A stretch of 64,000 nucleotides of DNA. Source: Kribbella amoyensis (GTDB lineage Bacteria; Actinomycetota; Actinomycetes; Propionibacteriales; Kribbellaceae). Within the stretch, counting starts at the first letter, position 1. Every line of letters starts with the position of its first letter. Of the stretch, positions 24,673 through 42,777 are shown in pieces. The translations under genes and the position numbers were made by a program. A model generated the notes under the pieces. The model was not told the DNA's origin. It did not search any database and saw only the letters and a list, made by a program, of their open reading frames with translations. The DNA lies in assembly GCF_007828865.1 (NCBI RefSeq), contig NZ_VIVK01000001.1, forward strand, positions 2,914,001-2,978,000, read 5' to 3'.

Positions 24673-24701
24673 TTGACACGAATGTGATCGATCACTAATT
24701 T
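24673..24701 (+). promoter_or_regulatory. Promoter with LacI operator filling the spacer (site 2)
   Basis: TTGACA (24673-24678), exactly 17 bp, then TAATTT (24696-24701). The second GTGATCGATCAC occupies 24684-24695, ending at the base before the -10 element. A bound LacI protein would block RNA polymerase directly. It drives the gene starting at 24752. Confidence 0.75.
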
Positions 24702-24751
24702 CGTGGAACGGCCCGGAAAACGCATACCCCCTCAGCTGGAGGAGAGCGCGC

Positions 24752-25879: not shown

Positions 25880-26784
25880 GCGACCTGACCTACCAGGACG
25901 ACGGGACCAGCAGCGTCTCCGTGGCGGCCGCCGGGACCGAGCTGTTCACCTACGTCTACCAGTCCGGCGCGGCGCAGTACGAGTCGCCGCGGCCGTACTT
26001 GCATCCGCTGCGGACCCCGAGTGGCCGGCTGGTCAGCATCTACCGGCCGCACGACCACTACTGGCATGTCGGGATCGCCTGGTCGTTGCCGCACTTCGGG
26101 GCCGACAACTTCTGGGGCGGACCCAGCTTCCGCAACGGCCGCGGGTACGTCCAGCTCGACAACAACGGCTCGGCGCGGCACCGCCGGACCGACCGGGCCG
26201 AGATCGTCGAAGGCGTGTTCCACTTCGGCCACGAGCTGGAGTGGTTCCGCCAGGACGGCACCGAGGTGGTCCAGGAGAGCCGGCAGCTCACCGCGCGCCT
26301 GGCGGCCGAGCAGTCCGCCTGGACGCTGACCTTCGAGACGTCGATGCGGAACGTCAGCGGCGAGGACATCGTGATCGGTTCGCCGACGACCGAGGGGCGG
26401 CCGGACGCGGGGTACGGCGGGCTGTTCTGGCGTGGACCGCGGTCGTTCACGGGCGGTACCGTCCTCGGTCCGGACGGCGCGACCGGGGAGGAGCTGCGAG
26501 GACAGCGCGCGCCGTGGATGGCCTTCACCGGCAAGCACGACGAGGTCGAGGGCACGTCGTCGGTCGTGATGGTGGACGCGCCGTCGAACGCGCAGCACCC
26601 GCCGCAGTGGTTCGCCCGGTCCCAGCCGTTCGGCTGCCTCGGCCCGGCCCCGTTCTTCAGCGAAGAGGTCACGTTCGGCCGCGACACCACGATGACCAAC
26701 CGGTACGCCGTCGTGATCGCGGACGGCGCCGTCGACCTGGACCGGGCCAAACGCCTGGCCGACGTCGGCAGCTCGGCGCTCTAG
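25876..26784 (+). CDS. DUF6807 ('PmoA'-labelled) family protein
   Basis: 302 residues. The family pattern is clear: ESPRPYLHPLRTPSGRLVSI, then RPHDHYWHVGIAWSLPHFGA and NFWGG. Database labels call this family PmoA, but the protein is soluble and sugar-cluster-associated; a role on carbohydrate derivatives is more likely and no methane oxidation is implied. It overlaps the dehydrogenase gene by ATGA and converges, with 4-bp overlap, with an MFS gene. Confidence 0.82.
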   Translation: MSDLTYQDDGTSSVSVAAAGTELFTYVYQSGAAQYESPRPYLHPLRTPSGRLVSIYRPHDHYWHVGIAWSLPHFGADNFWGGPSFRNGRGYVQLDNNGSARHRRTDRAEIVEGVFHFGHELEWFRQDGTEVVQESRQLTARLAAEQSAWTLTFETSMRNVSGEDIVIGSPTTEGRPDAGYGGLFWRGPRSFTGGTVLGPDGATGEELRGQRAPWMAFTGKHDEVEGTSSVVMVDAPSNAQHPPQWFARSQPFGCLGPAPFFSEEVTFGRDTTMTNRYAVVIADGAVDLDRAKRLADVGSSAL

Positions 26785-28074: not shown

Positions 28075-30081
28075 TCAGCGGCGGGCGCCCGCCTCGGTCA
28101 TCACCCGCTGGGCCTCCGGTGGGAAGACGCCGTCGGTGACCTGGGTGTTGCCGACCAGCCGGTTGTTGTAGCCCGGTCCCTCGGGATTACGGGCCGGGCC
28201 GACGTCCCACCAGTTGCCGGTGATCAGGTTGTCCTTGGTGTTGAAGGTCTCCGGGTCCTTGTCGTCGGCGTTGACGTAGACCCAGCGGCTGCTGCCGAGG
28301 AACACGTTCTCGCGCATCACGACGTACCGGGTGCCCTGGTCGATCAGGGCGCCGAACGTCTCCCGGCTGTCGTAGACGTAGTTGCGCTCGATCACGGTGC
28401 CGGGGCTCGAGGACAGCGTGTAGATGCTGCCGCCGTCGTGCATCGCCTGCTTGGTGTCGTGGATGAGGTTGTGGCTGACGGCGTTCTCCCGGAACGTGGT
28501 CGGCGTGGTGTAGATCGGCTGGTACTCGTAGAGGCCGGCCTTCAGGTAGTACTCGTTGCCGCCCGGGTCGTTGATGCCCCAGCCCCAGCCGATGTCGATG
28601 CCGTCGTACGGCAGGTCGGTGAGGGTGTTGTGCGAGATCGTCGCGCGGGTCACGTAGGTGGCCAGGATGCCGGCGTTGTCGCGGTAGTTCTTCGAGACGC
28701 CGCTGATCGTGTTGTCGACGATCCGGACGTCGTGGTTCGTCATCCGCGGGTCGCGCGGGTGGTGGGCGTCCGGCTGGACCCCACCGACCACGATCGCGGA
28801 CGCCGCGCTGTCGGTAAAGCGGTTGCCCTGGACATCGATCTCGCCGGCGCCGTACCCGGGTCCGGAGGCGTGGGCGTTCGGGTCCATGCCGAGACCGAGG
28901 CCGACCTGGCCGAGCCGGGTGAAGACGTTGCCGTCGAAGGTGATGTGCGAGGCCGCCGAGACCTGGACCGCGGCCGGGATCTGGTGCCACTCGTTCCGGG
29001 TCGCCTCGAACTCGGGGCAGCCGTCCTGGCAGCTGGTCAGGTAGTCGGCCGGCGGGTTGTACTTGCCGACGATGTGCGCGCCGCTCTGCTGGTCGGCGTA
29101 CCCCTGCGGTCCGCTCGGGAAGCGCCAGGTGGTGTCGGAGAACTGCAGCCCGGAGAAGGTCAGGTCGCGGACCGGCTCCGCGTAGCTGCCGCCGATCTGG
29201 ATCAGCGACTCCAGCCGCGGCAACCGGATCTCGGAGTCACCGGCCGACCGGCCGTCGGCGGGCTTGTAGAAGAGCTTGCCCGCCTTCGAGTCCAGCGCCC
29301 ACTGGTTCGGGCTGTCGATGAACTCGTAGGCGTTGTTCAGGTACAGCGCGCCCCGGTTGTACGGCGACTTGAGCGTGTCGTACCCGAAGTTGTTGTTCTC
29401 CCAGGCCGGCTGGGTCATCACCAGCTCGTTGCCCTCGATCGAGCTGACCGGGGAGTACCGGTCGGTGAAGGAGCCGAGTTCCTCCAGCTCCAGGCCGGAC
29501 GTGTCCCGGAGCGCGGCGAACTTGGCGGCCAGGGCTGGGTCGTTCACGGTCAGGCCGCGAGGACTGAACGACAGGTGGGCGCGGTTCTTCTTGTCGGGGG
29601 CGAGCATCAACCGCGGGCGCTCGGCGAGCTTGCCGTCGGCGTACAGCTGGCGGGTCGTGGTCCCGGCCGGGACCTTCGCGACCCAGATGTTCTTCGCGGG
29701 ATCGGCCAGGGTCCAGCCGGTGACCCGGGATCCGCCGGACAGGACCGCGCGCTCGCCAGGGGCGCTGGTCCAGGTGACCCGGTGTCCGTTCCGGCCGCCG
29801 TCCCGGGCGTCGAAACGCAGCGGCCGGGCGAGTTCGTGGATGCCGCCGGCCACGATCACCCGGACGTCGCGGCGGGCCGAGTGGGCCCGGACGAGTCCTT
29901 GGGCGGCTTCGAAGGTGCGGACGACGTGGTCGGCGCCGGCCGCCTGACCGGTCGGGGACACCGCGATGGTGACCGGACCGGCGGCGTACGCGGTGCCGTC
30001 GAGGCCGAGCACGGAGAGTCCGAGCGCGGCGGCGAGCAAGGTGGCGAGGACGGGGAGGGGGCGACTTCGTCTACGACCCAT
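28075..30081 (-). CDS. Secreted right-handed parallel beta-helix protein (putative polysaccharide-active)
   Basis: 668 residues. Sec-type signal peptide: basic MGRRRSRP, hydrophobic core, cleavage near YAAG (about residue 34). The body shows pectin-lyase-like beta-helix repeats, for example VSAASHITFDGNVFTRLG, then GEIDVQGNRFTDSAASAIVV and TISGVSKNYRDNAGILA and GTVIERNYVYDSRETFG. Such proteins cleave or bind uronic-acid-rich polysaccharides; catalytic residues cannot be assigned. The promoter carries the same CAGACAAC octamer as the divergent regulator/ABC region, linking it to that regulon. Confidence 0.85.
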   Translation of the reverse strand: MGRRRSRPLPVLATLLAAALGLSVLGLDGTAYAAGPVTIAVSPTGQAAGADHVVRTFEAAQGLVRAHSARRDVRVIVAGGIHELARPLRFDARDGGRNGHRVTWTSAPGERAVLSGGSRVTGWTLADPAKNIWVAKVPAGTTTRQLYADGKLAERPRLMLAPDKKNRAHLSFSPRGLTVNDPALAAKFAALRDTSGLELEELGSFTDRYSPVSSIEGNELVMTQPAWENNNFGYDTLKSPYNRGALYLNNAYEFIDSPNQWALDSKAGKLFYKPADGRSAGDSEIRLPRLESLIQIGGSYAEPVRDLTFSGLQFSDTTWRFPSGPQGYADQQSGAHIVGKYNPPADYLTSCQDGCPEFEATRNEWHQIPAAVQVSAASHITFDGNVFTRLGQVGLGLGMDPNAHASGPGYGAGEIDVQGNRFTDSAASAIVVGGVQPDAHHPRDPRMTNHDVRIVDNTISGVSKNYRDNAGILATYVTRATISHNTLTDLPYDGIDIGWGWGINDPGGNEYYLKAGLYEYQPIYTTPTTFRENAVSHNLIHDTKQAMHDGGSIYTLSSSPGTVIERNYVYDSRETFGALIDQGTRYVVMRENVFLGSSRWVYVNADDKDPETFNTKDNLITGNWWDVGPARNPEGPGYNNRLVGNTQVTDGVFPPEAQRVMTEAGARR

Positions 30082-30223: not shown

Positions 30224-30982
30224 TCAGTCGCCCGAGCGGGCGGGCGGGCGGCGGCGCTCCCAGGCGGAGCGGATGTGGTCGGTCATCGCCTGGGCGGCCC
30301 CGGCGGCGTCCCGGTCCAGGATCCGGTCCAGGATCCGCCAGTGCTCCTCGTTGCTGATGGCAACGTCCTCGACGCCGGGGTGACCCTGGTAGCGCAGGCT
30401 GGTGCGGGCCTGGCTGTGCACGGTGCTGACGATCGACCGGGCCAGCCGGTTGCCGGACGCGGCCATGATCCGGTCGTGGAACTCGACGTCGGTCTCGATG
30501 AAGACCGCCGGGGTCCGGACGTCGGCCTCGAGCCGGTGGAAGATCGCCTGCAGCTCGGCGAGGTCCTCGTCGGTGGCGTGGCCGGCGGCCTCGGCGGCGA
30601 GGCTCGACTCGAGCGCGATCCGGACCTGGACCAGCTCGTCCAGGATGGTCAGGTTCGCGTCGTGCTTCACCGCGGCGGCGAGCACGGCCGCGTCGAGCAG
30701 GTTCCACCTGGTGTCGTCGGTGACCACGGCGCCGACGCCCTGCCGGACCGCGACCAGGCCCTTCGCCTCCAGCGCCTTGACGGCCTCACGCACCGTGATC
30801 CGGCTGACCTGGAAGGTCTCCGACAGCGCGGATTCCGGCGGCAGTGCCGAGCCCGGCCGGAGCTCGCCGGACAGGATCGCGTCAACGATCGACTCCACCA
30901 CCAGGTCGGCCAGCCGGGCGGGCCGGCGGGCGCGCGCGGCCGGACCCAGCGTCACGGCCGGCTGCTCGGAACCCGATGCCAC
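30224..30982 (-). CDS. GntR/FadR-type transcriptional regulator with FCD domain (first)
   Basis: 252 residues. Winged helix-turn-helix at about 20-85 (LRPGSALPPESALSETFQVS, then RITVREAVKALEAKGLVAVR), then an FCD ligand domain with the metal-site pattern DVEFHDRIMAASGN and ISNEEHWRILDRILDRDAAG. FCD regulators usually sense organic or sugar acids. GTG at 30982 has GGGGAGG upstream and is preferred to the ATG at 31039. It is divergent from the ABC operon; the octamer CAGACAAC occurs twice between them and once before the beta-helix gene. Confidence 0.88.
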   Translation of the reverse strand: MASGSEQPAVTLGPAARARRPARLADLVVESIVDAILSGELRPGSALPPESALSETFQVSRITVREAVKALEAKGLVAVRQGVGAVVTDDTRWNLLDAAVLAAAVKHDANLTILDELVQVRIALESSLAAEAAGHATDEDLAELQAIFHRLEADVRTPAVFIETDVEFHDRIMAASGNRLARSIVSTVHSQARTSLRYQGHPGVEDVAISNEEHWRILDRILDRDAAGAAQAMTDHIRSAWERRRPPARSGD

Positions 30983-31039
30983 CGTGGCCTCCCCGAAGAG
31001 TTGTGAACGATCGGTTTCGATTCTGCCGCACCGAGTCAC

Positions 31040-31082
31040 CAGACAACAAGCCGTTGACAGCAGTCAACAGACAACTGACAAT
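31040..31082 (+). promoter_or_regulatory. Promoter and FCD operator region of the ABC operon
   Basis: TTGACA (31054-31059), 17-bp spacer, GACAAT (31077-31082). CAGACAAC occurs at 31040-31047 and 31068-31075, the second lying inside the promoter spacer. GTTGAC-AGCA-GTCAAC (31053-31068) is an inverted repeat overlapping the -35 element. The match to the octamer at the beta-helix promoter suggests one regulator for all three units. Confidence 0.65.
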
Positions 31083-31136: not shown

Positions 31137-32456
31137 ATGCCGACCGCGTCAGATCAGACCCCGAGGTGGTTCCGTCAGCCGAGGCGTAGCTGGGTGCTCG
31201 CCGCCCTGGCGCCGCTGCTGGCCGTGACGGCCGGCGCCTGCGGTGCCGCCGCACCGGAGGCGAGCGGGGGATCCCAGGGCGCCGCCGAGTCCGGCAAGCT
31301 GGTCGTCTGGGACTGGCACTCGGGCGACGCGAAGACCAAGGCGTACTACGACAAGGCCAAGACCGACTTCGAGGGCAAGCACCCCGGCGTCGAGGTCGAG
31401 TTCGTCGCCCAGCCGTACGACCAGTACTACACACTGCTCGGCACGGCGATCCAGGCCGGCAAGGGACCGGATCTGGCGATGTTCAACGGCGGCGCCCAGC
31501 TGCGCGAGCGGGCCGCGTCGCTGATCCCGCTGGACGAGAAGACCAAGGACCTGAGCGAGCGGCTGACCGGCTGGGACGCGTTCAAGGACAAGGGCACGAC
31601 GTATGCCGTCCCGATCACGCTGCAGGGTTTCCCCTTCTACTACAACAAGAGCGTCTACAAGAAGGCCGGCCTGGACCCGGAGAAGCCGCCGGCCTCGCTG
31701 GCCGAGCTGAAGGCCGACTGCGCCGCGATCAAGAAGGCGGGCACGGCCTGCTTCAACCTCGGCAACAAGGAGGGCCTCGGGATCGAGTTCTTCCTGTCCG
31801 GCTTCGCGCCCGGCGTGTTCAGCCCGCAGCAGTACGACGCCTGGCTCGCCGGCAAGCGGGACTGGTCCTCTCCTGAGGTCAAGCAGATCTTCCAGTTGTG
31901 GAAGTCCAGCAACGACGAGGGCTGGTACAACCAGGGCGTCAACTCGACCGCGATGTTCATGGACCAGTTCACGATGTTCTCCGGTGGCAAGGGCGGCAAC
32001 GTGATCGGGCTGATCTCCGACACCGCGCACTGGAAGGACTTCGACGAGTTCCTCGGCCCCGACCTCGGGGTGTACCAGCCGCCGGTGCTGAACCCGGCGA
32101 ACGCGACCAAGACCTACCTGCCGGCCGAGGGCGGCATCGGGTACGGCGTGATGAAGTGGACCAAGAACCAGGAGCTGGCCGTCGACCTGGTCAAGAGCCT
32201 GGCGAGCACGGACGCGCTCAAGCTCTTCTACGGCAACGCCGGCGCGATCGCGGCGGACACCACCATCGACACCTCGGACGCGACCGTGCCGGCGGTGAAG
32301 TCGATCGTGTCCTGGCTGCCGGACAGCAAGCCGTTGCTGCACACCGCGCTCTCGGCCAAGACGCTGGACCTGATCCACCGGTTGTCGCAGCAGCTGATCA
32401 ACGGTGACGTCACGGTGGACCAGGCCCTCACGCAGCTGGCGGCGTCGGACAAGTGA
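31137..32456 (+). CDS. Sugar ABC transporter substrate-binding lipoprotein
   Basis: 439 residues. Long signal peptide ending at lipobox TAGAC (Cys near 38), then a Gly/Ser linker. The family-1 binding-protein fold is recognisable: KLVVWDWHSGDAKTKAYYDK, VEVEFVAQPYDQYYTLLGTA and GKGPDLAMFNGGAQL. It captures a carbohydrate for the permeases that follow; the substrate is likely an oligosaccharide or sugar acid. A strong AGGAGG site precedes the ATG. No ATPase gene is in the operon, as is common where a shared MsiK-type ATPase is used. Confidence 0.9.
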   Translation: MPTASDQTPRWFRQPRRSWVLAALAPLLAVTAGACGAAAPEASGGSQGAAESGKLVVWDWHSGDAKTKAYYDKAKTDFEGKHPGVEVEFVAQPYDQYYTLLGTAIQAGKGPDLAMFNGGAQLRERAASLIPLDEKTKDLSERLTGWDAFKDKGTTYAVPITLQGFPFYYNKSVYKKAGLDPEKPPASLAELKADCAAIKKAGTACFNLGNKEGLGIEFFLSGFAPGVFSPQQYDAWLAGKRDWSSPEVKQIFQLWKSSNDEGWYNQGVNSTAMFMDQFTMFSGGKGGNVIGLISDTAHWKDFDEFLGPDLGVYQPPVLNPANATKTYLPAEGGIGYGVMKWTKNQELAVDLVKSLASTDALKLFYGNAGAIAADTTIDTSDATVPAVKSIVSWLPDSKPLLHTALSAKTLDLIHRLSQQLINGDVTVDQALTQLAASDK

Positions 32457-33370
32457 CTTCGCAGGCAGTGGCCGCACCGCGGCGGGCGACCGCGGTCCGG
32501 CGGTTCCGGATCGCCGAGCACAAGCTCGCGCCGTGGATCCTGCTCGCCCCGTCGGTGCTGGTGATCGTCGCGCTGCGGGTGATCCCGTTGTTCCTCGGCG
32601 CGCAGTACTCGCTCACCGGCGACGGCGAGCGGAACGGCGTGTTCGTCGGGCTGGACAACTACCGGGCGCTGCTGCACGACCGGGTGTTCGGGATCGCGCT
32701 GAAGAACGTCGGCCTGCTGTTCCTGGCCCTGCCGGTGGCGGTCGCGATCCCGGGGATCCTGGCGACCTTCCTGTTCCTCAAGGTCCCCGGGCACCGGTTC
32801 TACCGCAGCGTGTACTTCTTCCCGGTGGTGCTGTCGCCGGTGATCATCGGCGCGATCTTCAACATCCTGCTGTCCTTCGACGGTCCGGTGAACCAGCTGC
32901 TCGGCCGGGCCGGACTGGGTCCGGTCGACTGGCTGGGCAACGGCAAGGTGGCGATCTTCTCGGTGATCGCGGTGCACATCTGGGCCACCTTCGGGATGGC
33001 GCTGGTGATCTTCCTGGCCGGGTTCGCGACGCTGGACCAGTCGTTGCTGGACGCGGCCCGGTGCGACGGCGCGAACCTGGCCCAGACCGTCCGGCACGTG
33101 GTGATCCCCGAGCTCAGCCGGACCATCCAGTTCGTCTTCGTGACCACGATGATCGGTCTGCTGACCGGGATGTTCGGCCTGCTCTACGTGATGACCGCGG
33201 GCGGTCCGGGCGGCGCGACGTACCTGCCGGAGCTCTACATCTGGATCACCCAGGGGCAGATGAACAGCCCGGCGCTCGCCTCGGCGGCGTCGATGGTGCT
33301 GTTCGTGCTGATGCTCTTCGTCGGGTTCGCGCAACTGCGGCTGATCAAGCGCGCCACCAAGGAGGCCTGA
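32453..33370 (+). CDS. Sugar ABC transporter permease (MalF-type)
   Basis: 305 residues, six membrane segments. N-terminus EHKLAPWILLAPSVLVIVAL; the conserved EAA-like loop is LDQSLLDAARCDGANLAQTV, then RHVVIPELSRTIQ, which docks the ATPase. It overlaps the binding-protein gene by 4 bp (GTGA) and is followed immediately by its partner permease. Confidence 0.92.
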   Translation: MTSQAVAAPRRATAVRRFRIAEHKLAPWILLAPSVLVIVALRVIPLFLGAQYSLTGDGERNGVFVGLDNYRALLHDRVFGIALKNVGLLFLALPVAVAIPGILATFLFLKVPGHRFYRSVYFFPVVLSPVIIGAIFNILLSFDGPVNQLLGRAGLGPVDWLGNGKVAIFSVIAVHIWATFGMALVIFLAGFATLDQSLLDAARCDGANLAQTVRHVVIPELSRTIQFVFVTTMIGLLTGMFGLLYVMTAGGPGGATYLPELYIWITQGQMNSPALASAASMVLFVLMLFVGFAQLRLIKRATKEA

Positions 33371-33371
33371 G

Positions 33372-34199
33372 ATGAGGGAACGCGGCGTCGCCCGCTGGGT
33401 GATCGCGGTACCGATGCTCCTGCTCGCGCTGGCCACGGTGTACCCGATGCTGTTCACGCTCAACGTGGCGATGAAGTCGCGCCGGGAGTACGTGCTGGAC
33501 CGGTTCGCGCCGGCCGAGCACGTGAGCTTCGCCAACTTCGCCGAGGCGTGGAACAGCTCGGGACTCGGCCGGTACACGCTGAACTCGGTGATCGTCACGG
33601 CCGGTGCGGTGGCATTGTTGCTGCTGCTCGGGTCGATGGCCGGGTTCGCGTTCAGCCAGCTGAACTTCCGCGGCCGCAAGTCGTTGTTCCTGCTCTGCCT
33701 GGGTGCGTTGATGATTCCGTTCCAGGTGATCATGGTGCCGTTCTTCCGGGTGCTCGGGCAGGCCGGGTTGCTGGACACGCACCTGGGCCTGGTGCTCGCC
33801 TACACCGGGCAGTTCCTGCCGTTCACGATCTTCCTGATGACGAGCTTCTACGCCCGCGTCCCGCAGGAGGTGATCGAGGCGGCCCGGGTGGACGGCAGCA
33901 GCACGCTCGGGATCTACCGGCGGATCATGGTCCCGATCGGCCGGCCGGCGTTGTTGTCGGTGGGCATCCTGAACGCGTTGTTCTGCTGGAACGACGTGCT
34001 GATCTCCCTGCTCGTCCTGCAGTCCGAGCGCAACCGCACCCTGATGGTCGGGGTGACGGCGCTGCGCGGGCAGTACTCCGACAACATCCCGTTGTTCGCG
34101 GGCGGCGTCCTGGTCGCGGTCTTCCCCGTGATCCTCGTCTACCTGTTCTTCCAGCGGCAGATCACCGACGGCGTCACCGCCGGGGCGACGAAGGGATAG
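33372..34199 (+). CDS. Sugar ABC transporter permease (MalG-type)
   Basis: 275 residues, six membrane segments. The EAA loop reads VPQEVIEAARVDGSSTLGIY then RRIMVPIGRPAL. It pairs with the MalF-type permease one base upstream to form the transmembrane channel. The next gene, an enolase-superfamily enzyme, begins 9 bp after its stop, so import and metabolism are on one transcript. Confidence 0.92.
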   Translation: MRERGVARWVIAVPMLLLALATVYPMLFTLNVAMKSRREYVLDRFAPAEHVSFANFAEAWNSSGLGRYTLNSVIVTAGAVALLLLLGSMAGFAFSQLNFRGRKSLFLLCLGALMIPFQVIMVPFFRVLGQAGLLDTHLGLVLAYTGQFLPFTIFLMTSFYARVPQEVIEAARVDGSSTLGIYRRIMVPIGRPALLSVGILNALFCWNDVLISLLVLQSERNRTLMVGVTALRGQYSDNIPLFAGGVLVAVFPVILVYLFFQRQITDGVTAGATKG

Positions 34200-34207
34200 C
34201 GCCGGAC

Positions 34208-35359
34208 ATGCGTATCACTGGATTCCGCACGCTCACCACCGTGCACGACTGGGGCCGCCCGATCGGCGACGTGAACGGGGCGGTCGGATCGGGCAAGACC
34301 TCGGTCCCGGTCGTCGTGCTCGAGACCGACACCGGCCTGGAGGGGATCGGCCTGGGCTCGCACGCCGGGGTCGAGAGCCTGTTCGGTGCGCTCGACGGCC
34401 AGGACCCGCGTTCCGTGGTCGCGCTGTACGACCGGATGCTCGCCTGGGTGTTCAAGAGCGGCCACGGCGGTGCCGTCTTCGGCACGATCGGCGCGCTCGA
34501 CCTGGCCCTGTGGGACTTGAAGGCGAAGGCGGCCGGCGAACCGTTGTGGCGGACGCTCGGTGCCCGCGACCACGTCGTCCCGGCGTACGCGTCCGGGCTG
34601 GACGGGCCGCTCCCGGACGAGGAACTCGTTGCCCTGCACAAGCGGTTCGCGGACCGCGGCCTGCGCGCGGTGAAGCTGAAGGGCGGCCTCGACGTCGGGA
34701 CCGACCTGCGCCGGCTCGACCTGGTCAGCGACCTGTACCGCGACGCGACCGGGCAGGTCCCGGCGCTGATGCTGGACGCGAACGAGTCCTGGTCGCGCAA
34801 GGAGGCGGTCCGGCACATCGGCCGGATCGAGGAGCGGCACGACCTCGCCTGGATCGAGGAGCCGGTCCGTCGCTGGGACGTCGACGGCCTCGCCCTCGTC
34901 ACCCGGTCGGTCAAGGCAGCCGTGGCCACGGGGGAGAACCTGACCGGGCTCGAGCAGTTCCGGCCGCTCGTCCAGGCGAACGCGGTGGACGTGGTGCAGA
35001 CCGGGAGCGTCTGGGGCATCACCCACTTCCTCCGGGTCGCGGCGCTGGCGCACGCGTTCGACCTGCCGGTCAGCCCGGTCGCGTACTCCGCGAACCCGCT
35101 CGGCCACGCGGCGGCCTCGGTCCCGAACCATCTGTCGATCGAGCTGCAGGACTTCGGCCACCCGATCGGGATCAGCGCCGACCAGGTGATCGCCGACGGG
35201 CACCTGGTCCTCGGTTCGGCGCCCGGCCTCGGCCTGACCCTTGACGAGGCCGCCATCGCCGACCTCGGTGACGCCGCCGACTGGGGACATCAGGCCGGCC
35301 CGCACGTCCGTCCCGACCGAGCCGGCCGCCGGCTGGTCGGCAAGCCCGCCTTCGACTGA
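34208..35359 (+). CDS. Enolase-superfamily (mandelate racemase/muconate lactonizing) enzyme, sugar-acid dehydratase-like
   Basis: 383 residues. N-terminal capping domain, then a TIM barrel with the full set of residues: K156-L-K158 (KLKGG), metal ligands D190 (LDANES), E217 (WIEEPV) and E243 (TGENL), and a likely general-base His300 (NPLGH). This is the mandelate racemase subgroup pattern, which abstracts a proton alpha to a carboxylate; acid-sugar dehydratases have it. The specific substrate is unknown. It is shorter than L-fuconate dehydratase (about 430 aa). Confidence 0.88.
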   Translation: MRITGFRTLTTVHDWGRPIGDVNGAVGSGKTSVPVVVLETDTGLEGIGLGSHAGVESLFGALDGQDPRSVVALYDRMLAWVFKSGHGGAVFGTIGALDLALWDLKAKAAGEPLWRTLGARDHVVPAYASGLDGPLPDEELVALHKRFADRGLRAVKLKGGLDVGTDLRRLDLVSDLYRDATGQVPALMLDANESWSRKEAVRHIGRIEERHDLAWIEEPVRRWDVDGLALVTRSVKAAVATGENLTGLEQFRPLVQANAVDVVQTGSVWGITHFLRVAALAHAFDLPVSPVAYSANPLGHAAASVPNHLSIELQDFGHPIGISADQVIADGHLVLGSAPGLGLTLDEAAIADLGDAADWGHQAGPHVRPDRAGRRLVGKPAFD

Positions 35360-35371
35360 GAGGACCACTCG

Positions 35372-36127
35372 ATGTCCACGGACACAGCACCACGCAGTGT
35401 CGTCGTGACCGGTGCCGCCGGTGCCCTGGGTCGCGCGACCGCACTTCGCCTGGCCACCGACGGGTACGCCGTCGCCCTGCTGGACCTCCCCGTTGAGGAG
35501 CTCGACGCATCCGCGGCCGCCTTGAAGGAAGCGGGCGCGGAGTACGCCGTCCTGCCGGTCGATCTGCGGGACACCGCGGCGTTGACGGGCGCGATCGAGG
35601 AGACCGAGCGCCGGCTCGGTGCGCTGGCCGGATTGGTGAACAACGCCGCGATCTACCCGGCCACGCCGTTCCTGGACGTCCCGGTCGAGGAGTACGAGGA
35701 CGTGGTCGCCGTGAACCAGCGGGCCTCCTTCGTCGCGGCGCAGGCGGCGGCCCGGCTGATGGTGCCGCGGCGGTCGGGCGGGATCGTCAACGTCGCCTCG
35801 ATCACCTGGCACGGTGGCTGGGAACGGCTGGCCAGCTACGTGAGTACCAAGGGCGCCGCGGTCGCGCTGACCAGGGCACTCGCCCGCGAACTCGGGCCGC
35901 ACGGCCTCCGGGTGAACGCGGTGTCGCCGGGCGCGTTCCCGACCAGGGCCGAGGCGATCCACGAGAACCCGGAGGCGTACACCGCGTTCGTGCTGGAGCA
36001 CCAGGCGATCAAGCGCCGTGGTGCCGCCGACGAGGTGGCGTCGGTGGTGTCGTTCCTGCTCGGTGCCGACTCGTCGTTCGTGACCGGGCAGACGGTCAAC
36101 GTCGACGGCGGCTGGATCATGGAGTGA
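35372..36127 (+). CDS. SDR family oxidoreductase
   Basis: 251 residues. Cofactor motif TGAAGALG at about 11-18; NNAAIYP near 88; catalytic Ser (VASITWHGG), Tyr and Lys (SYVSTKG) all present; PGAFPTRAEA and FVTGQTVNVDGGWIME at the C-terminus. It is a classical NAD(P) dehydrogenase, plausibly oxidising the imported sugar or its derivative. It starts 12 bp after the enolase gene and overlaps the DUF4432 gene by GTGA. Confidence 0.9.
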   Translation: MSTDTAPRSVVVTGAAGALGRATALRLATDGYAVALLDLPVEELDASAAALKEAGAEYAVLPVDLRDTAALTGAIEETERRLGALAGLVNNAAIYPATPFLDVPVEEYEDVVAVNQRASFVAAQAAARLMVPRRSGGIVNVASITWHGGWERLASYVSTKGAAVALTRALARELGPHGLRVNAVSPGAFPTRAEAIHENPEAYTAFVLEHQAIKRRGAADEVASVVSFLLGADSSFVTGQTVNVDGGWIME

Positions 36128-37263
36128 GTGGCTTGCGGATCTTCGGACAGGACCTGACGGCCCGCGAACTGCGGGAGCGGACCGGTGACCCCGACAGCGT
36201 GGCCGGCATCCGGCAGATCGAGCTGAGCAACGGCGTGGAACGCGGGGTCCGGGCGGTCCAGCTCCGCAGCGCGGCCGGGTTCGAGGTGGACGTGCTCGTC
36301 GACCGGGCGATGGACCTCGGCGCCGCCCGGTACCGGGGTGTGCCGGTCGGCTGGCGGTCGGGCAACGGCTTCCGGCATCCGGGGCTGCACGAGCACAACG
36401 ACGAGGGTGGGCTGTCCTGGTTGCGTGCGCTCGACGGCCTGCTGGTGTCGGGCGGTCTCGACCACACGTTGTTCGGCGGCGAGGTCGACGCGACCGGGTA
36501 CGGCTACCCGCCGAAGCCGGCCGTCACGCACGGGTTGCACGGCCGGCTCACCGCGATCCCCGCTCGGTTGCTGGAGGCAACGGAAGTGTGGGACGGCGAC
36601 CGGTGCGTCCTGCGGGTCCGCGGCGAGGTGATCCAGGCGACCTCGTTCGGCGAGCACCTGCGACTGACCCGGACCGTGGAGCTCGACTTCGACGGCCTGG
36701 AGCTGCGGCTGCACGACGTGGTGGACAACCTCGGCTTCGAGCGGACCCCGCACATGTTCCTGTACCACCTGAACTTCGGCTGGCCGCTGGTCGACGAGGG
36801 CACCGAGTTCGTCGCGCCGATCACGGCCACGACCTGGTGCAGCGACTCGGTGGCCGAGCAGGGCGTCTCGTACCGGACCTTGCCGGGACCGCAGCCGGGG
36901 TTCGTCGAGCAGGTCTTCGAGCACCAGGTGGTCGCCGACGAGTCCGGCCGTTCGCGGGTCGCGCTGATCCGCGCGGACGGTTCGCTCGGAGTGGAGGTCG
37001 CCTGGGACGCGGCCACGATGCCGGCGTTCTTCGAGTGGCAGAACCTGCGCAGCGGCCAGTACGCGATCGGCCTGGAGCCGTCCACGCACGCGGTCGCCGG
37101 GGACGCCGCGGCCCGGGCGGACGGGTCGATGACCTGGCTCGAACACGGTGAGTCGCGGACGTACCGGACCACGATCAGAGTGCTGGACGGCCCGGAGGCG
37201 ACCGAGTCGGTCCGGGCCACGATCCGCCGTACCGGCGGCCAACCCGAGGAGAATCCCCGATGA
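36124..37263 (+). CDS. DUF4432 (aldose-1-epimerase-like) protein
   Basis: 379 residues. GVRAVQLRSAAGFEVDVLVD then RAMDLGAARYRGVPVGWRSG is the DUF4432 opening, and GYPPKPAVTHGLHGRLTAIP and LYHLNFGWPLVDEGTEFVAP are typical of this galactose-mutarotase-fold family. Mutarotases interconvert sugar anomers, fitting a sugar catabolic operon. GTG start at 36124 overlapping the SDR stop; it overlaps the CoA-transferase gene by ATGA. Confidence 0.87.
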   Translation: MSGLRIFGQDLTARELRERTGDPDSVAGIRQIELSNGVERGVRAVQLRSAAGFEVDVLVDRAMDLGAARYRGVPVGWRSGNGFRHPGLHEHNDEGGLSWLRALDGLLVSGGLDHTLFGGEVDATGYGYPPKPAVTHGLHGRLTAIPARLLEATEVWDGDRCVLRVRGEVIQATSFGEHLRLTRTVELDFDGLELRLHDVVDNLGFERTPHMFLYHLNFGWPLVDEGTEFVAPITATTWCSDSVAEQGVSYRTLPGPQPGFVEQVFEHQVVADESGRSRVALIRADGSLGVEVAWDAATMPAFFEWQNLRSGQYAIGLEPSTHAVAGDAAARADGSMTWLEHGESRTYRTTIRVLDGPEATESVRATIRRTGGQPEENPR

Positions 37264-38501
37264 CCGAGACCGCCGGAATCCTCGACGGGTACCGCGTCCT
37301 GGACTGCTCGATCGCGATGGCCGGCCCGTTCGCGGCGCAACGGCTCGGTGATCTCGGTGCGGACGTGGTGAAGGTCGAACCGGTCACCGGTGAGTGGCAA
37401 CGGCACGCCGCGGCCGGTGGGGCCCAGGGCAACGCGATCAACGTGTCGTTCCTCTCCCTCAACCGGAACAAGCGATCGCTCGCCGTCGACCTCAAGTCGG
37501 CGGCCGGCAAGGACGTGCTGCTCCGGCTGGTCGAACGCGCCGACGTCTTCCTGCAGAACTACCGTCCGGGCGTGGCCGAGCGGCTCGGCGTCGACTACGC
37601 GACGTTGTCGGCGATCAACCCGTCGCTGGTCTACGTGTCGATGTCCGGGTACGGCGAGGACGGGCCGCACCGGAACCTGCCCGGCCAGGACCTGTTGCTG
37701 CAGGCAAGATCCGGCGCGATGCTGTCGACCGGTCGGCACGGCGAACCACCGCAGCCGGCCGGCCAGTACCTGGTGGACGCGGTGACCGCGTCGACGGCGT
37801 TCGAGGCCGTGCTCGCCGCCCTGCTGCATCGGGAGCGTACCGGCGAGGGACAGCTCGTCCAGGTGAACATGCTGGACGCGATCACCACCCTGCAGATGCA
37901 GGAGTTGTCGGTCTTCACGGCCGGCGGCGTTCCGCAGCAGCGTGGGAGCGAGCCGCACGCGCACGTGTACATCCGCTCGCCGTACGGGACCTTCAGGACG
38001 GCGGACGGGTTCCTCGCGCTGGCGATGCCCGACCTGCCGACGCTGGGCCGGGTGATCGGCGAGGACACCTTCCTGGCGATGGACTCGGAGGTGCACGGCT
38101 GGACGCACCGGGACGAGATCTTCCGGCGGACCGCCGACCGGCTGGTGACCCGGCCGACCGAGGAGTGGCTGGCGGAGTTGTCGGCCGCGGGGATCTGGGC
38201 CGGGCCGGTGTACGACTACCAGGACCTGGTCGACGATCCGCAGATCGCCTTCAACGGGACCTTCGTGGAGTACGACCATCCGACCGAGGGCCGGGTGAAG
38301 ACGCCGGGCTTCCCGTACAAGTTCGCGCGGACGCCGGCCCGGATCGAGCGAGGCGCGCCCCTGGTCGGTGAGCACAGCGCGGAGGTACTGGCGGAGGCCG
38401 GGTTCGGTCCCGAGGAGATCGCGGAGCTGCTCGGGTCGGGTGCGGTCGCCGAGACCCGGCTCGAAGGGGCCACGGCCGATCGATCCGCGCAGGCGTCGTG
38501 A
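37260..38501 (+). CDS. CaiB/BaiF-type (family III) CoA-transferase
   Basis: 413 residues. LDGYRVLDCSIAMAGPFAAQ, LGDLGADVVKVEP and LNRNKRSLAVDLKSAAGKD are family signatures; the catalytic aspartate is D144 (PGQDLLLQA). It moves CoA between carboxylic acids, forming acyl-CoA and so preparing an acid for hydration or beta-oxidation-like steps. Within a sugar ABC operon this is unusual. It is coupled to the genes on both sides. Confidence 0.92.
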   Translation: MTETAGILDGYRVLDCSIAMAGPFAAQRLGDLGADVVKVEPVTGEWQRHAAAGGAQGNAINVSFLSLNRNKRSLAVDLKSAAGKDVLLRLVERADVFLQNYRPGVAERLGVDYATLSAINPSLVYVSMSGYGEDGPHRNLPGQDLLLQARSGAMLSTGRHGEPPQPAGQYLVDAVTASTAFEAVLAALLHRERTGEGQLVQVNMLDAITTLQMQELSVFTAGGVPQQRGSEPHAHVYIRSPYGTFRTADGFLALAMPDLPTLGRVIGEDTFLAMDSEVHGWTHRDEIFRRTADRLVTRPTEEWLAELSAAGIWAGPVYDYQDLVDDPQIAFNGTFVEYDHPTEGRVKTPGFPYKFARTPARIERGAPLVGEHSAEVLAEAGFGPEEIAELLGSGAVAETRLEGATADRSAQAS

Positions 38502-39631
38502 CCGGCGCGTACCGCGGTCTCACCTGGGACCATCCGCGCGGCCGGGACGCGCTGGTCGCGGCGTCCGGGACGATGCCGGGGGCAACGATCGACTGGGACA
38601 CGCATCCGCTCAGCGGGTTCGAGTCCACCCCGATCGCGGACCTGGCGAGCCGGTACGACGTGATCGTGCTCGACCATCCGCATCTCGGCGAGGCGCTGGC
38701 CCACGACTGTCTCCGGCCGCTCGACGAGGTCTTCGATCCCGGGGACCTGCGGCGCTGGGCGACCGAGACGGCCGGCCCGAGCTTCGCGTCGTACACGCTC
38801 GACGGGCACGTCTGGGCGCTCCCGCTGGACGCGGCCACGCAGGTCGCGGCGACCAGGGTCGACCTGGCCGGCGAAATGCCGGTGCTCTGGTCCGACGTCG
38901 TCGCGCTGTCGCAGCGGGTACCGGTAGCGCTCTCCGTGGCCGGACCGCATGCGCTGTTGACGTTCGCGTCGATCTGCGTGGCGTTGGGCGAGGAGCCGGG
39001 TGGGTCCGAGGGGTTCGTGGCTGCGGCGACCGGCACGCGGGCGCTGGAGTTGATGACCGACCTGGTCGCGCGGGCGCCGCGGTACACGGTCGAGCTCGAT
39101 CCGATCGGGCTGCTCGAGGACATGGTGCACGGGGACTCGGTCGCGCACTGCCCGTTGGTCTACGGGTACGTGAACTACTCGGCCACGACGCTCGATCGGC
39201 GGGTCAGTTTCACCGACGCGCCGAGTTCGGTACCGGGTGGCCGAGTGGGATCGACGCTCGGTGGGACCGGGCTCGCGGTGACGCGGCGCTGTGAGGTGAC
39301 GCCGGAGTTGGTGGAGCACCTCGGGTGGTTGCTGTCGCGGGATGCGCAGGAGGCCTTCATTCCGGCGCATTCCGGGCAGCCGTCGTTGCGGAGTGCGTGG
39401 CTCGCCGACTCGGTGAACGACCCGGTGGGCGGCTTCTACCGGGACACCTTGCGCTCTGTGACGCAGGCGTGGGTGCGGCCGCGGTACGACGGGTACATCG
39501 CGTTCCAGACCGAGGCCGCCGAGGTGGTCCGGTCGGTCGTCACGGGCGGTTCGTCGATCGCGGCCGGGTCGAGCGAGCTGGACACCCTTTATCTGAACGG
39601 CATTCGCCCGACGGAAGGAAGTACACGATGA
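38498..39631 (+). CDS. Solute-binding-protein-like protein without signal peptide
   Basis: 377 residues. The fold resembles family-1 ABC solute-binding proteins: RGLTWDHPRGRDALVAASG at the start, DVIVLDHPHLGEALAHDCLR and LGGTGLAVTRRCEVTPEL. The N-terminus is hydrophilic, with no signal peptide, lipobox or membrane anchor, so it is predicted to stay in the cytoplasm. GTG start overlapping the CoA-transferase stop; ATGA overlap with the hydratase. It could be a soluble ligand carrier or sensor, or a repurposed binding domain. Confidence 0.82.
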   Translation: MTGAYRGLTWDHPRGRDALVAASGTMPGATIDWDTHPLSGFESTPIADLASRYDVIVLDHPHLGEALAHDCLRPLDEVFDPGDLRRWATETAGPSFASYTLDGHVWALPLDAATQVAATRVDLAGEMPVLWSDVVALSQRVPVALSVAGPHALLTFASICVALGEEPGGSEGFVAAATGTRALELMTDLVARAPRYTVELDPIGLLEDMVHGDSVAHCPLVYGYVNYSATTLDRRVSFTDAPSSVPGGRVGSTLGGTGLAVTRRCEVTPELVEHLGWLLSRDAQEAFIPAHSGQPSLRSAWLADSVNDPVGGFYRDTLRSVTQAWVRPRYDGYIAFQTEAAEVVRSVVTGGSSIAAGSSELDTLYLNGIRPTEGSTR

Positions 39632-40398
39632 CGGACGACGTGCGGTTCGACCTGGACGGCCAGGTCGCCGTCATCACCCTGAACCGGCCGGCGAAACTCA
39701 ACGCGGTCACGCAGGCGATGTCGGACCGGCTGGTCGAGCTGGCGCAACGCTGCAACGAGGACGACGAGGTCCGCGCGGTCGTCCTGACGGGTGCGGGTGA
39801 TCGGGCGTTCTGCGCGGGCTCGGACATCGGTGAGCTGGCGAAGTACCGGACCCCGTGGGAGTTCCGGAACCGGGCCGACTACTGCGACTCGCTGAAGCTG
39901 CTCCGGAAGCCGATCGTTGCCGCGATCAACGGGTACGCGCTGGGCGGCGGACTGGAGACCGCGTTGATCTGCGACGTCCGGCTCGCCTCGGCGACGGCGA
40001 AGCTGGCCGCGCCGGAGGTCAAGCTGGGCTGGATCGGCGGCGGTGGCATGTCGGCCCTGCTGGAGCGGTCGATCGGCAGCAGCAACGCCGCGCTGATGCT
40101 GATGACCGGTGATCCGATCGACGCACAACGGGCCCTCGCGTGGGGCCTGGTCAGCGAGGTCCTCGCACCGGACGACCTGGTACCACGGGCGCTGGAGGTG
40201 GCGGCCACGATCGCGAGCCGGGCACCGATCGCGGTGGAGACGGCGAAGGCGAACCTGGCCGCGGCCGCCTCGATGCCGCTGGAGCAGGCGGTCCGCTACG
40301 AGCGCGACCTGCAGACTGTCTGTTTCGCGACCCAGGACGCGGCCGAGGGGCGAGCCGCCTTCGCCGAGAAGCGGGCGCCGACGTTCATTCGGGCGTGA
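39628..40398 (+). CDS. Enoyl-CoA hydratase/isomerase family protein
   Basis: 256 residues. The crotonase core is present: RAFCAGSDIGEL (oxyanion hole), NGYALGGGLETALICDVRLA with Glu110 and AAPEVKLGWIGGG with Glu130, matching the two catalytic glutamates of true hydratases. It is the last gene of the operon and would act on the acyl-CoA made by the CoA-transferase. Its 3' end overlaps the second FCD regulator gene by 14 bp, tail to tail. Confidence 0.92.
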   Translation: MTDDVRFDLDGQVAVITLNRPAKLNAVTQAMSDRLVELAQRCNEDDEVRAVVLTGAGDRAFCAGSDIGELAKYRTPWEFRNRADYCDSLKLLRKPIVAAINGYALGGGLETALICDVRLASATAKLAAPEVKLGWIGGGGMSALLERSIGSSNAALMLMTGDPIDAQRALAWGLVSEVLAPDDLVPRALEVAATIASRAPIAVETAKANLAAAASMPLEQAVRYERDLQTVCFATQDAAEGRAAFAEKRAPTFIRA

Positions 40399-41074
40399 GG
40401 TCGGTGAGGTGACGGCGGATCCAGTTCTCGATCCCGGCCACGTGCGACAGCGAGTGGGCGGCCGCGATACTCGGCTGCCGGTCGGCGATGGCCAGCGCGA
40501 TCGCGCGGTGCTCCCGCCGGGTCTGGTCGAACGAGTCCTGCTGGGTCACGCCACGCCAGAGCCGGGCCCGGTGGGTCCGGCCGGCCACCCCGTCGATGAA
40601 CGAGCACAGCACCGCGTTCCCGGAGGCCTCGGCGATCCGGTGGTGGAACTCCAGGTCGTTCGCGACCACCTCGTCGACCGGCGCGTCGGCGGTGATCGAG
40701 TCGACCAGTGCGAGCAGCCCGGCCGCGTCCGCGTCGGACATCAGCCGGGCGGCCTTCTCGGCGGCCATCGGTTCGAGCGCGCGCCGGACCTCGAACAGGT
40801 CGAGCACACTGGAGTCCTGGTGGACGTCGATGATGAAGCCCATCGTCTCCAGCAGGATCTCCGGCGTCAGGCTGGTCACGTAGGTGCCGTCACCGCGCCG
40901 GACGTCGAGGATCCGGATCATCGCCAGCGCCTTGACCGCCTCGCGCAGCGAACTGCGCGAGATCCGCAGTTGCTCGGCCAGGTCGGCCTCGCGCGGCAGC
41001 CGGTCACCCGGCTTCAGGCTGCCGTCGAGGATCATCGCCTTGATCCGCTCGATGGCCACGTCGGTCAGGGCCAT
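40385..41074 (-). CDS. GntR/FadR-type transcriptional regulator with FCD domain (second)
   Basis: 229 residues. Helix-turn-helix LKPGDRLPREADLAEQLRIS then RSSLREAVKALAMIRILDVR, and FCD domain with NDLEFHHRIAEASGNAVLCS. ATG with GGAG upstream. It lies 90 bp after the SDR gene on the same strand, probably the last cistron of the FAH-SDR unit, and likely controls it through the TCTGATGT sites before the FAH gene. Its ligand is probably a sugar-acid intermediate. Confidence 0.87.
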   Translation of the reverse strand: MALTDVAIERIKAMILDGSLKPGDRLPREADLAEQLRISRSSLREAVKALAMIRILDVRRGDGTYVTSLTPEILLETMGFIIDVHQDSSVLDLFEVRRALEPMAAEKAARLMSDADAAGLLALVDSITADAPVDEVVANDLEFHHRIAEASGNAVLCSFIDGVAGRTHRARLWRGVTQQDSFDQTRREHRAIALAIADRQPSIAAAHSLSHVAGIENWIRRHLTDLTPE

Positions 41075-41164
41075 GGGACTCCACTCTGCGCGCGAGAACT
41101 GCCGGGTCGGGCTCGCAGTCTAGGGCGCGGCCGACGGTTCATCGCGGGTTGCGCGGACTCGGGG

Positions 41165-41920
41165 TCAGCCGACCGGGCGGAGCCGTAGACCGGCCATACC
41201 GCCGTCGACCGCGAGGGCGGCGCCGACGGTCGAGCCCGAGTTGGGGCCGCCGAGGTACGCGACCGCGAGCGCGACCTCCTGCGCCGTGACCAGGCGTCCG
41301 TGCGGCTGTCGGGCATCCAAGGCGGCCCGCTCGGCCTGCGGATCGGGGGCGGAGTCGAGCAGCCGCTGGACCCACGGCGTCTCGGCCGTTCCCGGGTTCA
41401 CGCAGTTGACCCGGATGCCTTCCCGGACGTGGTCCGCGGCCATCGCCATCGTGAGCGACTGCAGGGCGCCCTTGGTGGCCGAGTACAACGCGCGCTGCGG
41501 CAGCCCGGCCGTCGCGGCGACCGAGGCGACGTTGACGATCGCGGCCGCGGGCGACTTCCGCAGATGCGGCAGGGCGGCCCGGCTGACCCGGACCGCGCCG
41601 ACCACGTTCACGTCGTACACCTGGTGCCACTGCTCGTCGGAGTTGTCGGAAACGGTGCCCTGGGCACCGATTCCGGCGTTGTTGACCACCACGTCCAGCC
41701 GGCCCCAGGTCGCGATCACCTGGTCCACCGCCTGCCGCACGCTCTCGTCGTTCGTCACGTCGGCCTTCAGCCCGAGCACGCCGTCCGGGACGCCGGCCGG
41801 GTCCAGGTCCAGGGCGGCGACCTGGGCACCGCGACTCGCGAGCTCGGCGGCGACGGCCGCGCCGATCCCGGACGCGCCCCCGGTGACGAGCGCGACCAGC
41901 CCCTCGTACTCGCCGCTCAT
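41165..41920 (-). CDS. SDR oxidoreductase, 2-keto-3-deoxy-L-fuconate dehydrogenase-like
   Basis: 251 residues. TGGASGIG cofactor motif, NNAG, VASVAATAGLP and YSATK active-site elements. The C-terminal region LLDSAPDPQAERAALDARQP then HGRLVTAQEV and VDGGMAGLRLR resembles, from memory, the 2-keto-3-deoxy-L-fuconate 4-dehydrogenases found beside FAH hydrolases in actinobacteria. It overlaps the FAH gene by 4 bp. The product would be a 2,4-diketo acid, the substrate of the FAH enzyme. Confidence 0.82.
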   Translation of the reverse strand: MSGEYEGLVALVTGGASGIGAAVAAELASRGAQVAALDLDPAGVPDGVLGLKADVTNDESVRQAVDQVIATWGRLDVVVNNAGIGAQGTVSDNSDEQWHQVYDVNVVGAVRVSRAALPHLRKSPAAAIVNVASVAATAGLPQRALYSATKGALQSLTMAMAADHVREGIRVNCVNPGTAETPWVQRLLDSAPDPQAERAALDARQPHGRLVTAQEVALAVAYLGGPNSGSTVGAALAVDGGMAGLRLRPVG

Positions 41921-42777
41921 CGGCCCGCTCCGAACGCGACGTACTCCTGCCGCTGGCGGCCGAGGCCGTCGATCTCCAGCTCGACCACGTCACCCGGCGC
42001 GAGGTACGGGAACCGGCCGGACAGCGCGACGCCCTCGGGCGTCCCGGTCAGCACCAGGTCGCCCGGATCGAGCACCATGTACTGGCTCAGGTGGTGGATG
42101 ATGTGCGCGACGTCGAAGATCAGGTCGGCGGTGCTGGAGTCCTGCCGGGGCTCGCCGTTGACGAAGCTGCGCAGCCCGAGCTTGCCGGCCTCGATCTCGT
42201 CCGGGGTGACCAGCCACGGGCCGACGGGGCTGAACCCGGCGGCGATCTTGCCCTTGCTCCACTGGCCGCCGGAGACCTCGAGCTGGAACTCCCGCTCGGA
42301 CAGGTCGTTGGCGACCACGAAGCCGGCCACGTGGTCGAGGCTCTCGGCCGGCGAGTCGAGGTACGACGCGCGCTTGCCGATCACGACACCGAGCTCGACC
42401 TCCCAGTCCGTCTTCACGCTGTTGCGCGGGATCGTGACCGGGTCGTTCGGACCGGCCAACGTGTTGGGGGCCTTGAAGAACAGCACCGGGACGGTGGGCG
42501 GCTGGGCACCGGACTCGGCCGCGTGGGCCGCGTAGTTCATCCCGATGCAGACGATCGCGCCGGGCTTGGTGATCGGGGCGCCGATCCGGAGGCTGTCGGC
42601 ACCGTCGAGCAGCGGGAGGTCCCCGGCCGCGAGCGCGGTGGCGACCCGGGCCGGACCACCGGACGCCCAGAACTCGCCGTCGAGGTCGCGGGTGAGCCCT
42701 CGGAGGTCGTAGGTCCGGTCGTCGGCGATCACCACGGGCTGTTCCTGGCCGACCGCTCCCAGACGCGCGAACTTCAT
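41917..42777 (-). CDS. Fumarylacetoacetate hydrolase family, 2,4-diketo-3-deoxy-sugar-acid hydrolase-like
   Basis: 286 residues. FAH-fold motifs: CIGMNYAAHAAESG, IPRNSVKTDWEVELGVVIGK (metal Glu residues), NDLSEREFQLEVSGGQWSKG and LTGTPEGVALS. The NDLSERxFQ...GQWSKGK pattern is that of hydrolases cutting 2,4-diketo-3-deoxy-L-fuconate or -rhamnonate into pyruvate and L-lactate. The start at 42777 follows GGAGGAAG; upstream frame is noise. It heads an operon with the SDR dehydrogenase and an FCD regulator. Confidence 0.87.
   Translation of the reverse strand: MKFARLGAVGQEQPVVIADDRTYDLRGLTRDLDGEFWASGGPARVATALAAGDLPLLDGADSLRIGAPITKPGAIVCIGMNYAAHAAESGAQPPTVPVLFFKAPNTLAGPNDPVTIPRNSVKTDWEVELGVVIGKRASYLDSPAESLDHVAGFVVANDLSEREFQLEVSGGQWSKGKIAAGFSPVGPWLVTPDEIEAGKLGLRSFVNGEPRQDSSTADLIFDVAHIIHHLSQYMVLDPGDLVLTGTPEGVALSGRFPYLAPGDVVELEIDGLGRQRQEYVAFGAGR

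Follow-up and report, generated by a model that had tools for sequence, protein, structure and literature searches.

The 64,000-nucleotide window analysed here (the whole stretch, positions 2,914,001 to 2,978,000 of contig NZ_VIVK01000001.1) comes from the 8.1-Mb genome of Kribbella amoyensis. At window positions 31137-40398 it contains an operon in which genes of a sugar importer and of putative sugar-oxidation enzymes are followed by genes for a family III (CaiB/BaiF) coenzyme A (CoA) transferase, a protein with the fold of sugar substrate-binding proteins (SBPs) that should stay in the cytosol (cSBP), and a crotonase-family protein. The last three genes form a cassette that recurs in several phyla, and their products probably carry out a reaction that depends on CoA, possibly the loss of water from a sugar acid.

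The nine-gene operon and its conservation in the family

The initial annotation described nine same-strand genes with tight junctions, and this is borne out. All nine genes are on the plus strand; five of the eight junctions are 4-bp overlaps of the ATGA/GTGA type (32456/32453, 36127/36124, 37263/37260, 38501/38498 and 39631/39628), and the others are gaps of 1 bp (33370/33372), 8 bp (34199/34208) and 12 bp (35359/35372). The gene identities agree with Pfam and NCBIfam, the eighth gene having only a sub-threshold match to SBP_bac_8. The operon and its immediate neighbours are as follows.

30224-31039 (-): FadR1, a FadR/GntR regulator divergent from the operon (FCD 96 bits, GntR 73 bits)
31041-31082, approximate (no strand): candidate promoter/operator-like element with TTGACAGCAGTCAA (31054), conserved across seven intergenic regions of clade A (phylogenetic footprint)
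31137-32456 (+): extracytoplasmic sugar-binding lipoprotein of a probable CUT1-type ATP-binding cassette (ABC) importer (SBP_bac_1 93 bits)
32453-33370 (+): ABC permease 1, GTG start (BPD_transp_1)
33372-34199 (+): ABC permease 2 (BPD_transp_1)
34208-35359 (+): enolase-superfamily (MR/MLE) protein (MR_MLE_N; MR_MLE_C 154 bits)
35372-36127 (+): short-chain dehydrogenase/reductase (SDR), putative aldose 1-dehydrogenase (adh_short_C2 186 bits)
36124-37263 (+): DUF4432 protein, aldose-1-epimerase-like (DUF4432 306 bits)
37260-38501 (+): family III (CaiB/BaiF) CoA-transferase (CoA_transf_3 361 bits)
38498-39631 (+): cSBP, predicted cytosolic protein with a sugar-SBP fold and without a signal peptide (AlphaFold model, Foldseek and alignments; SBP_bac_8 sub-threshold)
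39628-40398 (+): crotonase-family protein (ECH_1 213 bits)
40385-41074 (-): FadR2, a second FadR/GntR regulator, convergent (FCD 84 bits)
41165-41920 (-): second SDR, putative 2-keto-3-deoxy-aldonate 4-dehydrogenase (adh_short_C2 185 bits)
41917-42777 (-): fumarylacetoacetate hydrolase (FAH)-family hydrolase, putative 2,4-diketo-3-deoxy-aldonate hydrolase (FAA_hydrolase 221 bits)

The importer is represented in the operon by its SBP and two permeases; an ATPase gene is not present there, and no search was made for a shared one in the rest of the genome. The closest solved structures to the lipoprotein are sugar-oligosaccharide SBPs, all of them weak matches, and assignment of a substrate from the importer binding proteins was dropped because their PDB relatives are too distant. 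The SDR at 35372-36127 attains none of the NCBIfam equivalog cut-offs, and the sole PDB relative of the DUF4432 protein is 3ty1, a 'hypothetical aldose 1-epimerase' (E 2e-28).

We searched 38 genomes of the family for cSBP and fetched the surrounding 19 kb of each locus. The proteins form three clades, with identities of 65-69% (A), about 40% (B) and about 35% (C). Clade A comprises nine of the 38 genomes, including that of the window, and all nine have the same nine genes in identical order; the same block is present in Kribbella sindirgiensis. A break between the DUF4432 and CoA-transferase genes was looked for and does not occur within the genus. The spacings between the DUF4432, CaiB, cSBP and crotonase genes in the clade A relatives range from -8 to +44 bp overall, with -4 to +21 bp for DUF4432-CaiB, mostly -1 for CaiB-cSBP, and -4 to -8 for cSBP-crotonase. 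Loci of lower GC content were read by six-frame searches instead of the gene caller, by which one clade A SDR was recovered. The clade A neighbourhoods also hold FadR2, the second SDR, the FAH-family hydrolase and an aldo-keto reductase, and every neighbourhood that extends far enough includes FadR1 and a secreted beta-helix protein as well. The strongly conserved element between FadR1 and the SBP gene, which in the window includes the palindrome TTGAC-AGCA-GTCAA, may serve as a promoter or operator. The nine-gene block is a conserved unit and not a chance assembly.

The clade C cSBP loci (L040, L086-L089) have a MaoC hydratase in place of the crotonase and two CaiB genes, and several of them carry 6-deoxyhexose genes encoding a fuconolactonase-like protein, an FAH-family protein, an aldo-keto reductase and an enolase-superfamily protein. 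A second signal-less family, matching SBP_bac_1 and apparently cytosolic, is encoded close to a Gfo/Idh oxidoreductase gene at loci of the MaoC type (L086, 13570-14763; L079, 8991-10226).

The CaiB-cSBP-crotonase cassette

A scan of the cSBP alignment against 84,980 species genomes yielded at least 583 relatives; counts out of 80 refer to the best 80 of these, and the per-locus gene counts were made without an overlap filter. The 80 loci span Actinobacteria, alpha- and beta-Proteobacteria, metagenome-assembled genomes of Acidobacteria, and others. In 75 of them the CaiB, cSBP and crotonase genes are adjacent on one strand. Among the five exceptions, two Rhizobium loci have no local CaiB gene, their genomes encoding elsewhere a CaiB 73% identical to that of the window; two have a more divergent crotonase within the neighbourhood, adjacent in one case; and at the last locus a crotonase was not detected. 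Pairwise identities are correlated among the three proteins from locus to locus (Pearson 0.81-0.86). Those of DUF4432 and the SDR, present in 56 and 62 of the 80 loci, respectively, co-vary with each other at 0.90 and with CaiB at lower values (0.55 and 0.62). The cassette is therefore a tight unit, and DUF4432 with the SDR is a second, frequent sub-module. Thus, the block of nine genes stands as a conserved unit within the genus, but the functional core is not that block; it is the cassette of CaiB, the cytosolic SBP-like protein and the crotonase. The combination of a CoA-transferase and a crotonase in sugar catabolism, pointed out in the initial annotation, holds here and in many other lineages. 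The system is patchy, as cSBP is found at E<1e-20 in only three of 397 sampled genomes of the phylum.

The genome from which the window comes contains a paralogous cassette at 592382-595520 of contig C2 (L006, 9383-12520), which is conserved in five congeners. Identities to the window proteins are 64% for CaiB, 38-40% for cSBP and 60% for the crotonase, and the locus also encodes permeases, an RraA-like protein, two GH141-like beta-helix proteins, an SDR and a metallo-beta-lactamase-fold protein. Annotated records name the cassette proteins 'CoA transferase', 'carbohydrate ABC transporter substrate-binding protein' and 'enoyl-CoA hydratase/isomerase family protein'.

Both enzymes of the cassette retain their catalytic residues. 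CaiB passes PF02515 with 361 bits against a cut-off of 23.3, and its catalytic aspartate, D173, lines up with the SUGCT aspartate within a shared motif; none of the 86 homologs deviates at this position. Carnitine metabolism proper was rejected as the role of CaiB, since the protein scores 144 bits against a cut-off of 413 for L-carnitine CoA-transferase (NF002914); it is also under the cut-off of every other NCBIfam CoA-transferase equivalog. The crotonase (PF00378, 213 bits) has both catalytic glutamates, as had been noticed in the initial annotation; E110 and E130 are invariant in 90 homologs. In the same homologs the stretch W77-F79-R80-N81-R82-Y85-C86-D87, before the GGG-L-E motif, is invariant as well. 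Judged from the sequence, this polar and charged stretch would lie on the substrate side, where ordinary hydratases generally have a hydrophobic acyl pocket.

The third protein, cSBP, scores 20.9 bits against SBP_bac_8, under the cut-off of 27, and an NCBIfam match was not found. An AlphaFold (AF2) model built from 47 sequences (mean pLDDT 95, pTM 0.93) predicts a type-II SBP fold, and the top Foldseek matches are the CUT1 sugar-binding proteins MalE3 and SmoF (TM about 0.78-0.80, E 1e-20). The first strand of the model occupies residues 3-10, and the N-terminus, MTGAYRGLTWDHPRG, contains no hydrophobic stretch and no signal peptide or lipoprotein anchor, so the protein should stay in the cytosol, a feature that adds to the initial annotation. 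Unlike MalE3 and SmoF, cSBP has no signal peptide and is encoded beside CaiB and not beside permeases. About 60 of its positions are invariant in the 47 sequences, which come from several phyla; this is more than expected for transport SBPs with varied ligands.

One locus (L076, 10853-13179) has the enolase and cSBP genes without CaiB and crotonase, a CaiB-crotonase pair being encoded elsewhere in that genome. In Asticcacaulis (L121, 13675-14826) an LldD L-lactate dehydrogenase gene lies close 3' of the cassette, which suggests that the accompanying 6-deoxysugar route may end in lactate.

Sugar-oxidation genes around the cassette

Directly 3' of the nine-gene block lies a convergent FadR-SDR-FAH operon (40385-42777), which extends the initial annotation. 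The top NCBIfam match of the FAH-family hydrolase is 2,4-didehydro-3-deoxy-L-rhamnonate hydrolase, with 274 bits against a cut-off of 500, and the second SDR pairs with it in the clade A relatives and at the fuconolactonase/aldo-keto reductase loci.

At 45 of the 80 cassette loci we found an XylX-like protein of the FAA-hydrolase family, and at some of them an aldehyde dehydrogenase (1eyy/3v4c type). Homologs of the XylX-like proteins include 2-keto-3-deoxy-D-arabinonate dehydratase 2q18 and, with strong similarity, 9kkt. 2-Keto-3-deoxypentonate (KDP) dehydratase and aldehyde dehydrogenase are the final two enzymes of the Weimberg route (Watanabe 2019, PMC6336799). We compared 41 loci having XylX and the full cassette with 13 XylX loci from annotated plasmids that have no cassette. 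An IlvD/EDD or UxaA dehydratase is encoded at none of the 41 loci and at 8 of the 13 (Fisher p = 1.2e-6), in a comparison set that is small and plasmid-borne and with loci that are not phylogenetically independent. The direction is clear: at XylX loci the cassette is present where the classical dehydratase is missing. An enolase-type dehydratase is also absent within about 10 kb in 28 of the 45 XylX-bearing loci. The most complete example is an Azospirillum locus (L108) with the order SDR-CaiB-cSBP-crotonase-XylX-aldehyde dehydrogenase-sugar importer, in which only the sugar-acid dehydratase is missing.

The enolase-superfamily protein of the window keeps the KxK motif (K156, K158) and the metal ligands D190, E217 and E243, all invariant in 24 homologs. 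It has no canonical His-Asp dyad, the corresponding positions being T or a gap and V, compared with Asp and His in the dehydratase relatives 2og9 and 2ovl. L-talarate/galactarate dehydratase (NF047820) was considered for this protein and rejected (173 bits against a cut-off of 500, dyad absent).

Elsewhere in the window, a secreted right-handed beta-helix protein with a weak match to a GH141 insertion domain is encoded at 28075-30081 (-), adjoining a major facilitator superfamily transporter (26781-28037). In most clade A relatives homologs of the beta-helix protein are encoded beside the operon, and further ones turn up at other cassette loci. At 23603-26784 a LacI regulator gene is divergent from those of a Gfo/Idh oxidoreductase and a DUF6807 protein, forming a separate small carbohydrate locus, and positions 14579-18037 hold a gas-vesicle cluster with two GvpA/J-type proteins, two GvpL/F and GvpK.

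A possible CoA-dependent dehydration and its alternatives

In carnitine metabolism, CaiB swaps CoA between substrate and product, and the crotonase CaiD removes water from a beta-hydroxy acyl-CoA. The absence of classical dehydratases from XylX loci with the cassette, together with the Azospirillum locus that lacks only this enzyme, makes a similar CoA cycle the most economical reading, and we tentatively suggest, at somewhat less than an even chance, that an aldonate is converted to its CoA ester and dehydrated in this form by the cassette. The adjacency and co-varying identities of the three genes' products, the invariant catalytic residues of CaiB and the crotonase, and the sugar-SBP fold of the signal-less cSBP are in line with this, and the polar stretch of the crotonase and its gene context favour a sugar-acid CoA ester as substrate indirectly. 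The operon would import a sugar or sugar-acid glycoside for non-phosphorylative breakdown, with one step on CoA thioesters. DUF4432 would mutarotate the sugar and the SDR oxidise C1 to give the aldonate, to which CaiB would transfer CoA from the product thioester. The crotonase could then eliminate water across C2-C3 by means of its two glutamates, and the enol would tautomerise to 2-keto-3-deoxy-aldonyl-CoA, from which CaiB would hand the CoA on to a further aldonate. The downstream SDR and FAH-family hydrolase of the window may finish the 2-keto-3-deoxy acid to pyruvate and a hydroxy acid, an ending of the Route III type; in other bacteria the XylX-like KDP dehydratase and aldehyde dehydrogenase may do so. 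The cSBP might present or retain the sugar acid or its CoA ester. The initial annotation had proposed dehydration, then activation, then hydration; activation followed by CoA-dependent dehydration is more likely, because the enolase lacks the His-Asp dyad and is absent from 57 of the 80 cassette loci. The fuller proposition, that the cassette encodes an aldonate dehydratase which depends on CoA, shares no homology with the IlvD/EDD, UxaA and enolase types and has cSBP as an obligatory substrate-binding subunit, we consider doubtful.

Several observations weigh against CoA-dependent dehydration. Besides the limits of the XylX comparison given above, IlvD/EDD enzymes are encoded elsewhere in all 12 tested genomes, so a cell may possess the enzyme although the locus lacks it; since they are also present in all 14 control genomes, the genome-level test is uninformative and the locus-level comparison was used. 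XylX is not part of the window's own operon, and an acyl-CoA ligase to prime the cycle is not present there. Sphingomonad and Azospirillales loci also encode a P-loop kinase and a 2-hydroxyacid dehydrogenase resembling glyoxylate reductase; the sphingomonad additions hint at a C3 or C2 product that the scheme leaves unexplained. The role given to cSBP is a guess. Finally, the operon's own enolase-superfamily protein could be the dehydratase; should it act as one without the dyad, the cassette would need a different role.

The most probable alternative, which we regard as unlikely, develops this last point: the enolase acts as sugar-acid dehydratase, and the cassette handles a later or different acid in a deoxyribonate-like manner, by C-C cleavage or by hydrolysis of a CoA ester resembling glyceryl-CoA or glycolyl-CoA. 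The position of the enolase gene inside the operon and its retained KxK motif and metal ligands agree with this, as do the glyoxylate/hydroxypyruvate-reductase-like protein and small P-loop kinase encoded 3' of the cassette in sphingomonads and Azospirillales. Deoxyribonate catabolism has been proposed, with genetic evidence, to proceed via glyceryl-CoA, and in Klebsiella via deoxyribonyl-CoA, with a CoA-transferase and a glycerate kinase in the cluster (PMC6365646). By this precedent the statement of the initial annotation that non-phosphorylating routes do not use CoA thioesters was too strong. That route uses a CoA-synthetase or beta-keto-acid cleavage enzyme, a hydroxyacyl-CoA dehydrogenase and a thiolase, and the passages of PMC6365646 consulted mention neither a crotonase nor an SBP-like protein for it. 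A thiolase or beta-keto-acid cleavage enzyme was not recognised in the operon of the window, the His-Asp dyad of mandelate-racemase-type dehydratases is absent from its enolase, and many of the 57 loci without the enolase nevertheless have XylX and aldehyde dehydrogenase, which need a 2-keto-3-deoxy acid.

It is less probable again, and on the whole improbable, that the cassette serves to break down the acidic aglycone of an imported glycoside, or an acyl or phenylpropanoid group attached to such a glycoside, the crotonase acting as a hydratase-lyase and the other genes handling the sugar. Acids of this kind are common substrates of CaiB enzymes and crotonases, and secreted beta-helix enzymes or GH78-like proteins are encoded at many loci and AMP-ligases at some. 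Against this, none of the genes seen to be conserved with the cassette encodes an esterase, a vanillin-type dehydrogenase or a ring-cleavage enzyme, the conserved companions being DUF4432, the SDR and XylX; the substrate-side stretch of the crotonase is polar, charged and invariant; and the fold of cSBP is that of a sugar binder. Ordinary acyl-CoA and transport genes lying by chance downstream of a sugar operon are already disfavoured and very improbable: both enzyme families are large and common and the SBP-like protein is below the Pfam threshold, but the three-gene arrangement holds in 75 of 80 loci over Actinobacteria, Proteobacteria and Acidobacteria, the cassette occurs also at a second sugar locus of the same genome, and orthologs are retained in trans where they are not adjacent.

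Several known systems resemble the operon in part. As in the carnitine system, a family III CoA-transferase and a crotonase are encoded in one operon; unlike there, the context is that of a sugar, an additional cytosolic SBP-like protein is present, and there is no carnitine transporter or ligase. The sugar importer, SDRs and FAH-family enzymes, and in relatives the XylX-like KDP dehydratase and aldehyde dehydrogenase, resemble the Weimberg (Route II) and Route III pathways for pentoses and 6-deoxyhexoses (Watanabe 2019, PMC6336799), but at many loci the slot of the IlvD/EDD, UxaA or enolase dehydratase is empty and CaiB-cSBP-crotonase is found instead. With deoxyribonate catabolism (PMC6365646), the shared features would be sugar acids as CoA thioesters and, in the Klebsiella cluster, the CoA-transferase and glycerate kinase. 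Non-phosphorylative sugar oxidation and CoA-thioester chemistry are both known; a description of this cassette was not found in open-licence PubMed Central full texts, absence from which is not proof of novelty.

Textbook sugar-acid dehydration uses iron-sulfur IlvD/EDD, UxaA or enolase-type enzymes. If the proposed scheme is true, a CoA-ester route found across Actinobacteria, Proteobacteria and Acidobacteria would add an iron-free way of carrying out this step. It would explain hundreds of operons that are now annotated piecemeal, and would assign a function to a family of proteins with a binding-protein fold that are kept inside the cell. The question can be addressed directly in soil bacteria that grow in culture, for example Azospirillum brasilense or Sinorhizobium.

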